Shown piece after piece: positions 6,369 to 52,747 of a DNA stretch of 64,000 nt; the first letter of the stretch is position 1; each line of letters begins with the position of its first letter. Below the pieces are notes generated by a model. It searched no databases. It saw only the letters and a program-made list of their open reading frames with translations, and was not told where the DNA came from. The stretch lies in the NCBI GenBank assembly GCA_025455065.1, contig JALONG010000025.1, forward strand, positions 1-64,000. Direction: 5' to 3'. The position numbers and the translations under genes were made by a program. The DNA comes from Candidatus Kapaibacterium sp. GTDB taxonomy: Bacteria > Bacteroidota > Ignavibacteria > Kapaibacteriales > UBA4661.

Positions 6369-7544
6369 ATGAACGATTTACAACGGGTGATAACAAGTCT
6401 GGAAAAGCGCAATGAACCTTGCGTCATGGCAACGGTTGTTCATACCGAAGGTTCGACCTATCGCCGAGCGGGGGCGCGAATGGTGATTTTCCGTGATAGC
6501 AGTTCCGAAGGCGCTATTAGCGGCGGTTGTCTGGAAAGTGATGTTATCGAAAATAGTACCAGCGTGTTTGACAATGGCGTGCCGAAACTTCTTCGCTACG
6601 ATGCGCTTTCTGACGATGATGACCCGATTTTTGGCTTGGGAATGGGCTGCAACGGCATTACGACGGTCTTTCTGGAACGTTTGAGTGGAAAAGATGATAT
6701 TTTTTGTCAAACAGTCCGTTCTTTCTTCAATAACCGTCAAAGCGGCGTAATTGCTACGGTGTACGATATTGAGCCGCAGAATGCACTACCAAACTCGCCC
6801 TTATTGGACGGACATCTATTGGACGGGAATCGGTTGTTCCTGCTTTCCGGCGATGAAGCAAATGATAATTTTGGCGAACCCCCGCTTGCGGAGCGTTTGA
6901 GAGAAAATGTCTGGAATGCCGCATTACCACTGCTTTCCGGCGGAAAACCGCAGCAACTCACGGTGGATGACGAACAAGCCCGTATTTCCCTTGTTCTTGA
7001 GCCTGTGCAGCCGCTTCAAGAGTTGCTCGTTTGGGGAGCGGGATATGATGCGATTCCGCTTGCGCACTACGCTTCCATGCTGGGTTGGCGAGTAACAATA
7101 GCCGACCATCGTCCGGCATATCTTTCGGAGGAGCGTTTTGGCGAAAATGCCCGTTTGATGCGTACACGCCGCGAAACTATTCAGGAAACTGCACAAAACC
7201 TTGCTTCAAAGGACATTCATCGGAACACGGCGGTTGTGATTATGACGCACAATCTGGCGCTTGATGCTGCTGCGCTCCAAGCCGCATTAGGCTCTGAGGC
7301 AGGTTACATCGGACTTTTGGGACCGAAGCCACGTTTGACAAAAATTCTGACGCTGCTCCGCGAACAAGGTTTTGCGCCGACAAAAGCAGCATTACAGCGC
7401 CTCCACAGCCCGATTGGTCTGGACATCGGTTCGGAAACGGCGGAAGAAGTTGCGTTGTCAATCGTTTCAGAGATTCAAGCCGTGATGAATACACGCTCTG
7501 CGGGCTTTTTGACAAAACGCAAGCAAGGTAAAATTCATGAATAA
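6369..7544 (+). CDS. XdhC/CoxI family molybdoenzyme maturation protein
   Basis: XdhC-type proteins bind molybdenum cofactor and help make it sulfurated before insertion into xanthine dehydrogenase-like enzymes. This 391-residue protein has both family domains. The N-terminal XdhC_CoxI domain carries GSTYRRAGARMV and GAISGGCLESDV. The C-terminal Rossmann-type domain carries LLVWGAGYDAIPLA, YIGLLGPKPR and SPIGLDIGSETAEEVA. ATG 6369 is preferred over the longer frame from 6315 because homology begins at MNDLQRV. The molybdoenzyme is not nearby, but a ModA-like binding protein lies 560 bases downstream, which fits a molybdenum theme. Confidence 0.88.
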   Translation: MNDLQRVITSLEKRNEPCVMATVVHTEGSTYRRAGARMVIFRDSSSEGAISGGCLESDVIENSTSVFDNGVPKLLRYDALSDDDDPIFGLGMGCNGITTVFLERLSGKDDIFCQTVRSFFNNRQSGVIATVYDIEPQNALPNSPLLDGHLLDGNRLFLLSGDEANDNFGEPPLAERLRENVWNAALPLLSGGKPQQLTVDDEQARISLVLEPVQPLQELLVWGAGYDAIPLAHYASMLGWRVTIADHRPAYLSEERFGENARLMRTRRETIQETAQNLASKDIHRNTAVVIMTHNLALDAAALQAALGSEAGYIGLLGPKPRLTKILTLLREQGFAPTKAALQRLHSPIGLDIGSETAEEVALSIVSEIQAVMNTRSAGFLTKRKQGKIHE

Positions 7545-51518: not shown

Positions 51519-51562
51519 AAACGTCTCGTCATGCGCTTTGCGTGGCGAGGCGTTGTTTTTTG
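51519..51562 (+). terminator. Rho-independent terminator after the DUF1573 gene
   Basis: AACGTCTCGTCATGC pairs with GCGTGGCGAGGCGTT through Watson-Crick and G-U pairs and is followed by TGTTTTTT. Confidence 0.8.
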
Positions 51563-51592: not shown

Positions 51593-51621
51593 GGAACTTT
51601 TCGTAACTTATCGTGGTTTAG
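51593..51621 (+). promoter_or_regulatory. Candidate ECF promoter P1 of the sigma gene
   Basis: GGAACTT (51593-51599), 16 bases, GTTTAG (51616-51621). GGAACTT is the -35 of RpoE-type ECF sigma factors. The same pair with the same spacing recurs at 51705, so this is unlikely to be chance. Confidence 0.6.
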
Positions 51622-51704
51622 CTGTTATTGGAAAATCAAGGTAATAATTCGTCCCCTTGTCGGTAAAAATTATTGCATTTTTTTTCAACTCCTGAAACTT
51701 TTGG

Positions 51705-51733
51705 GGAACTTAGGACATATAAGACTTGTTTAG
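51705..51733 (+). promoter_or_regulatory. Candidate ECF promoter P2 of the sigma gene
   Basis: GGAACTT (51705-51711), 16 bases, GTTTAG (51728-51733). It is identical in both boxes and spacing to P1. The leader to the sigma ATG would be about 75 bases. Duplicated promoters in front of a sigma gene suggest autoregulation. Confidence 0.6.
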
Positions 51734-51813
51734 GCGTATATGAAGGCGACCATTGGTCATTACAACGATAGATAGGAAATTTTTACACAACCATACCATT
51801 CGGGAGACGAATC

Positions 51814-52362
51814 ATGGATTTAGCCATGCAAATTGAGCATCTTTTTCGGACAGACCGCAAAAAATTTCTGGGTTTTATTCGCCAGCGCGTTCGGTCAGCA
51901 GAAGAAGCAGAGGACATTTTACAGGATGTGTTTGCTAACGTATTGGCAGCTTCGAACAATGTGTCGAAGCCGATTGAAAACATTGCATCGTGGGTATTTA
52001 CGGCTGTGCGCAATCGCATTATAGACTCCTACCGCAAAAAACGTGCGGAGACCTTCAGCGATATGCACCTGCCACAGGTTGAAGAATCATCGAATGAGAA
52101 TTTTGAAGCGCTGCTGAGTGATCTTACTGCCAGCCCTGAAGCAGCACTGATGCGTGAAACAATTTGGGACGCTGTCATGCGTGGATTAGACGAACTCCCC
52201 CCCGAACAACGAGAAGTTTTCGTGAAAAATGAATTTGAAGGTGTATCATTTCGTGAATTAGCCGACGAAACGGGCATCAACATCAATACACTCCTTGCGC
52301 GGAAGCGCTATGCAGTTCTCCATCTTCGTCAGCGTCTCCAAGACCTGTACGATATGGATTAA
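51814..52362 (+). CDS. ECF-type RNA polymerase sigma factor
   Basis: A 182-residue sigma-70 family protein of the extracytoplasmic-function type. Region 2 spans about residues 15-75 (FIRQRVRSAEEAEDILQDVF, then WVFTAVRNRIIDSYRKK). Region 4 spans about 120-175 (LDELPPEQREVFVKNEFEG, FRELADETGININTLLARKR). GGAG lies eight bases before the ATG. The C-terminal ending RLQDLYDMD is short. No anti-sigma factor gene follows; instead comes a terminator and a LytTR response regulator, so control may be transcriptional through P1/P2 or by an anti-sigma encoded elsewhere. Confidence 0.93.
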   Translation: MDLAMQIEHLFRTDRKKFLGFIRQRVRSAEEAEDILQDVFANVLAASNNVSKPIENIASWVFTAVRNRIIDSYRKKRAETFSDMHLPQVEESSNENFEALLSDLTASPEAALMRETIWDAVMRGLDELPPEQREVFVKNEFEGVSFRELADETGININTLLARKRYAVLHLRQRLQDLYDMD

Positions 52363-52474
52363 GTTCACCGCTTATTTAACAAAAGAGAACTGCACCTACT
52401 CACCTTTCAGTATCACCACACCACCACAACGCGAACGTTTATCGCCACAAAGCACATTTCGCTCGAAAACACAT

Positions 52475-52519
52475 CAACGCCGCTTCGGTTTCACCACCTG
52501 AAGCGGCGTTGTGGTTTTT
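52475..52519 (+). terminator. Rho-independent terminator after the sigma gene
   Basis: CAACGCCGCTTC pairs perfectly with GAAGCGGCGTTG around a 13-base loop, followed by TGGTTTTT. Confidence 0.88.
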
Positions 52520-52583: not shown

Positions 52584-52600
52584 CAGAATTACGTGCAGTG

Positions 52601-52678
52601 TCTCGCTCTCGCTCTCGCTCTCGCTCTCGCTCTCGCTCTCGCTCTCGCTCTCGCTCTCGCTCTCGCTCTCGCTCTCGC
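52601..52678. repeat. Perfect hexanucleotide microsatellite (TCTCGC)13
   Basis: Thirteen uninterrupted copies of TCTCGC lie between the promoter at 52553-52583 and the start of the LytTR regulator. A tract this pure should be prone to slipped-strand changes. It would be transcribed as a C/U/G-only leader. Confidence 0.95.
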
Positions 52679-52747
52679 AGGAGTAAAAACGGCTGAAGTA
52701 GGCACAAAAGCATGACATTCTCCATTTCAACGATATTCAACCAAACT

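Follow-up and report, generated by a model that had tools for sequence, protein, structure and literature searches.

Two tandem promoter-like pairs of the form GGAACTT-N16-GTTTAG were identified in front of an ECF sigma factor gene in the window, that is, the whole stretch of 64,000 nucleotides from Candidatus Kapaibacterium sp. analysed here. The pairs are interpreted as tandem ECF-type promoters of a single-gene unit, and the sigma factor most likely transcribes its own gene from both of them, a reading to which we assign a probability of roughly 0.7. Promoter function, both transcription starts, recognition by this sigma factor, and positive feedback are what we infer, as the most likely interpretation, from sequence comparison.

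An exact pattern search of the window gave two matches, both on the + strand and 112 bases apart: a distal pair at 51593-51621 (-35 box GGAACTT, 51593-51599; -10 box GTTTAG, 51616-51621) and a proximal pair at 51705-51733 (GGAACTT, 51705-51711; GTTTAG, 51728-51733). The same pattern had 0 matches in 100 shuffles of the window. Both pairs were located inside the 315-base gap 5' of the ECF gene (51814-52362). The search confirmed the arrangement described in an earlier note on this DNA, in which no third copy had been noticed; only two were likewise found here. The note had also described the 16-base spacer as exactly repeated, which was correct for its length but not for its sequence (TTCGTAACTTATCGTG versus AGGACATATAAGACTT), so that the two pairs have in common their boxes and the length of the spacer only. 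Its rarity and conservation led us to reject chance as the source of the pair. In a scan for the sigma-70 consensus, no match was found 5' of the sigma gene.

The 182-aa protein encoded by the sigma gene (+ strand) contained the Pfam domains Sigma70_r2 (residues 10-77) and Sigma70_r4_2 (residues 120-159), which are the only two elements of the present ECF definition (PMC8103513). The original ECF description further comprised CGT in the -10 box, a co-transcribed anti-sigma gene, and positive autoregulation, of which the CGT and the anti-sigma gene have been dropped (PMC8103513). In the window, the -10 box was GTTTAG, without CGT, and no anti-sigma gene adjoined the sigma gene. The -35 boxes of both pairs contained AAC, a common trait of ECF factors, as is positive autoregulation (PMC8103513). 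Among ECF models, the protein matched general and Bacteroidetes-type ones, and none of the specific models was matched at cut-off; the top NCBIfam models, TIGR02985 and PRK12513, were both below cut-off. The RpoE equivalog model was also unmatched at cut-off, and rse-like genes were missing among the neighbours of the sigma gene, so the protein was not assigned as an RpoE orthologue. The term RpoE-type, used in the earlier note, is therefore appropriate for the -35 box only and not for the protein.

The upstream DUF1573 gene is closed by an intrinsic terminator (51520-51554, +; 16-pair stem and T run; folding energy z -4.9), and the sigma gene is followed by a terminator-like hairpin (52472-52513, +; z -4.7) and a T run, with no further gene found between this hairpin and the sigma gene. 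Because of these terminators on both sides, the sigma gene is a transcription unit of its own. A ribosome-binding-site-like GGGAG was found at 51802-51806 (+). Between the sigma gene and a LytTR response regulator gene, hexamer repeats of the CTCGCT type were observed over about 80 bases (52600-52680) and possibly represent a phase-variable tract.

Within the genus, the sigma gene was carried by six of the eight genomes. The proximal GGAACTT and GTTTAG were invariant in all six, with a spacer of 16 bases except in G006, where it was 17. The sequence around the proximal -10 box, GAC[TA]TGTTTAG[GA]CGTATAT, was almost identical in the six genomes and forms part of a conserved block in the window (GACTTGTTTAGGCGTATATGAAG; 51723-51745, +) that spans the -10 box and the presumed start and is identical or nearly so in these genomes, while its flanks have diverged. 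The gene 5' of the sigma unit varied, being DUF1573 in the window, pyrF in loci L033 and L034, and hutU (urocanase) in more distant relatives where tested; an ORF of about 550 aa was located 5' of the sigma gene in many distant relatives. Since the upstream neighbour changes among relatives and the promoter remains, the promoters can be assigned to the sigma gene. In addition, the sequence TGAAACTTTT (51693-51702, +), also present in G010 and G005 about 11 bases 5' of the proximal GGAACTT, resembles the -35 box of distant orthologues and is possibly the remnant of an older promoter.

The distal pair was less strictly conserved. It was intact or nearly so at the equivalent place in G000, G006, G008, and G009, decayed in G010 and G005, and its boxes were altered in G006 and G009 (GTTTTT and GGAACTA/GTTTAA). 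Set beside the invariant proximal boxes, this raises the possibility, doubtful in our judgement, that only the proximal pair works, the distal one having arisen by chance or as a copy now in decay; autoregulation could still operate from the proximal pair in that case. Its position in four genomes, the same 16-base spacer, and a conserved stretch CAAGGnAA 3' of it wherever it is kept argue for a functional distal pair, as does the great rarity of the exact pattern in the genome.

Motifs of this type were found far beyond the genus. Orthologues of the sigma factor shared 66-92% identity in Kapabacteria/Ignavibacteria and about 47-51% in Cytophagales. In the sister genus (G012), an intermediate form of the promoter was present (TGAAACTT-N15-GTTTAA), and distant orthologues were preceded by TG[AT]AAC[CT]T-N15-GT[CT]TAT, the -10 box being GTCTA in most of them. 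The suggestion that GTTTAG is a lineage-specific -10 box was thus borne out, in that it is the genus-level variant of a more widespread GTCTA/GTTTA element. A single pattern covering both motif forms (AAC[C/T]T as -35) was found in 30 of 57 orthologue upstream regions, compared with a mean of 0.37 and a maximum of 2 in 200 dinucleotide shuffles, and in none of them on the reverse strand; as the pattern was written post hoc and the sequences are related, the independent cases are fewer than 30 of 57 implies. The motif as defined was missing in the other 27 regions. Boxes and spacing of the class motif persisted where the surrounding sequence had diverged, and among orthologues the region 4 recognition helix (INTLLARKRYAVLHLR) hardly varied, in line with the constancy of the AACTT core. 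In Cytophagales orthologues, inspected by eye only, a CGTCTAT-like box was present just 5' of the gene with a different -35 box. The comparison shows that a putative promoter of this kind has been kept before the sigma gene for a very long time.

Since a motif of this type stands before the gene across the class while the neighbours change, the simplest explanation of its presence lies in the gene product. In the proposed mechanism, the holoenzyme of this sigma factor would recognise GGAACTT by region 4 and GTTTAG by region 2. Transcription would start near 51628 (distal) and 51740 (proximal), giving leaders of about 186 and 74 bases. The result would be a positive feedback loop, with the proximal pair as the conserved main promoter and the distal pair as an accessory one. 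Autoregulation, already suggested by the earlier note, is therefore the likeliest reading, though unproven, on the basis of the 30 upstream regions with the motif. Points against it are the motif before a TonB-receptor gene in genomes where the search for an orthologue of this sigma factor found none, the 27 motif-less regions of 57, and the decay of the distal pair in two of six genomes.

To what extent the motif is specific to the sigma gene was addressed by pattern searches of the whole genome (5.6 Mb). With spacers of 15-17 bases, three exact matches were found, the third at C34:116211 with a 17-base spacer, compared with one for the reversed-pattern control. No excess was detected when up to two mismatches were allowed (99 matches, 302 in the reversed control) or when the -10 box was loosened (12 and 13, respectively). 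Several looser matches, such as C3:1220, were located within coding sequence, which accounts for them. Besides the sigma gene, the exact motif found one gene with a chorismate-binding-enzyme domain, which was isochorismate-synthase-like according to Pfam analysis of the G008 orthologue; its site (17-base spacer, within about 100 bases of the start) was kept in G000, G006, G008, and G009 and missing in G005, G007, and G010. A related site, GGAACTT-N16-GTTTA, was located about 90 bases 5' of a TonB-receptor gene in each of the four genomes of the genus that have this receptor, including G004 and G007. No sigma orthologue was found in G004 or G007 (the two assemblies being 97% and 86% complete), and the nearest ECF relatives there were below 30% identity. 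Either this sigma factor is not the only user of the motif or these two assemblies fail to include its gene; the TonB-receptor motif is probably read by at least one further sigma factor. The exact pair accordingly failed as the regulon seed that had been proposed: it gave only three genome matches, its looser forms did not exceed the reversed control, and, with the TonB-receptor site kept where the sigma gene was not found, it is probably not exclusive to this factor. The sequence ATTACAAAATTGCACTAATTATTCC following the TonB-receptor promoter (L114, L131, L135, L151) was nearly invariant and bore a faint likeness to the region after the distal pair of the window.

The same TonB-receptor sites are consistent with a cascade, in which a different ECF factor of the window's genome would transcribe the sigma gene from the two pairs, and 33 first-look ECF candidates are available in that genome. 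We consider such a cascade unlikely, because no close paralogue of the sigma factor was found among them (next-best relative, about 28% identity) and because the gene product itself is the simplest explanation for a motif kept class-wide before this gene among changing neighbours. A role as repressor or activator sites, in place of promoter elements, is very improbable for the repeated boxes: the conserved block does extend about 12 bases past the -10 box, more than a minimal ECF -10 element, but the two-part layout, the fixed spacing, the constant orientation towards the gene, and the fact that in relatives a different ECF-type pair (AACTT-N15-GTCTA) takes their place fit promoters better.

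In relatives, the class motif proved highly specific and much more informative than the exact pair. TGWAACYTTT-N13-GTCTA gave 20 matches in 13 genomes and none in the control, and TGTAACTTTTT-N12-GTCTA gave 31 matches in 123 genomes of the order, compared with one for the reversed pattern. Sigma gene aside, most matches were less than 100 bases from a gene start, mostly of genes for exported proteins. A type IX sorting domain was present in 12 of 25 targets, or about 9 of 20 once orthologues were merged, a count that includes some domains just below the Pfam cut-off and one counted via an orthologue. Sorting-domain matches per genome ranged from 81 to at least 150, roughly 4-8% of genes as estimated by us from the size of the genomes; at a background of 8%, the chance of 9 of 20 would be about 1e-5, for an enrichment that was spotted post hoc with one motif definition. 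Judging by the class motif, type IX cargo is the putative target set of the sigma factor in relatives; these sites could also be read by other ECF factors present in those genomes. In the window's own genome, exact and looser motif searches found no type IX cargo site, and the link is for that reason not claimed there.

A class promoter was also observed before a non-coding, 97% conserved stretch (L250, 500-690, +; the same in L252; L254, about 6390-6586, -), which forms a long hairpin (z -4.7) with a T run at its end and is a candidate sigma-dependent small RNA. No Rfam match was detected in the window or the side loci, including this stretch.

In many relatives, the sigma gene is closely followed on its 3' side by a gene for a small protein (96-150 aa) with apparently two membrane helices (L043, L053, L055, L059-L062, L064, L065, L069-L072, L077, L078, L080, L081, L097; Cytophagales, L084-L111). 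In Cytophagales, matches to the profile of this protein were weak (E 1e-7 to 0.07), but every one was encoded directly after the sigma gene. No Pfam or NCBIfam family was matched by the protein at cut-off. It is a candidate partner or anti-sigma factor. Its gene was absent beside the sigma gene in the window and in L032-L034. Two further features were observed in relatives. The 5' leader of the sigma gene in L045, L049, L050, L051, and L056 contained a long-range helix of about 28 pairs, about 200 bases 5' of the start, with a few of the pairs changed on both sides, and ending just before the ribosome-binding site. In addition, many orthologues (e.g., L048, L070, L078) carried in-frame N-terminal extensions of about 28-55 codons before the usual MDL start, which were conserved within subgroups (MKATEFRRKTGI...).

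The arrangement in the window is real, conserved, and ordinary, most likely an ECF autoregulation unit, which is a common circuit type. The sigma factor family seems to be unstudied, as the titles and abstracts of an incompletely covered literature on Kapabacteria and sigma factors included none on it. A broader proposal, which we regard as speculative and rather unlikely, is that the family is a general regulator of type IX surface proteins in Kapabacteria, driving itself, cargo genes, and a small RNA in one lineage; the ancestral brake would be the adjacent two-helix membrane protein, lost at that place in the window's genus and leaving a self-activating sigma gene with a doubled promoter. 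The analysis provides a testable definition, at the sequence level, of the promoter of an ECF sigma factor from a large group in which few members have been cultured. The lack of the candidate membrane partner beside the gene in the window's lineage gives concrete form to the question of how such a factor is kept in check. ECF factors govern type IX genes in Porphyromonas gingivalis (PMC4800418, PMC8265659) and probably do so in Flavobacterium psychrophilum (PMC9723704), and this link would extend to environmental Kapabacteria.

The closest known counterpart of the -35 box is that of sigma E (RpoE) of Escherichia coli and Salmonella, which is the identical GGAACTT (PMC1804206), and sigma E also activates its own gene through positive feedback (PMC8103513). 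In contrast, the -10 box of sigma E is GTCAAA (PMC1804206), whereas the window has GTTTAG, two tandem pairs, no rseABC-type neighbours, and a protein that is not an RpoE equivalog. In F. psychrophilum, motif SM6 marks ECF-type promoters before type IX secretion genes and an ECF/anti-sigma pair; unlike the window, it has a CGT -10 box and an adjacent anti-sigma gene, and no sigma factor is assigned to it (PMC9723704). SigP of P. gingivalis (PGN_0274/PG0162), an ECF factor for type IX secretion genes that is likened here by description, likewise belongs to the Bacteroidota, and the class motif before type IX cargo genes makes the window's relatives similar to that system. The target motif proposed for SigP, C(T)AAA... 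(PMC4800418), is unlike that of the window, and SigP acts with PorX on secretion-machine genes (PMC8265659), whereas the motif in the window's relatives precedes cargo genes.
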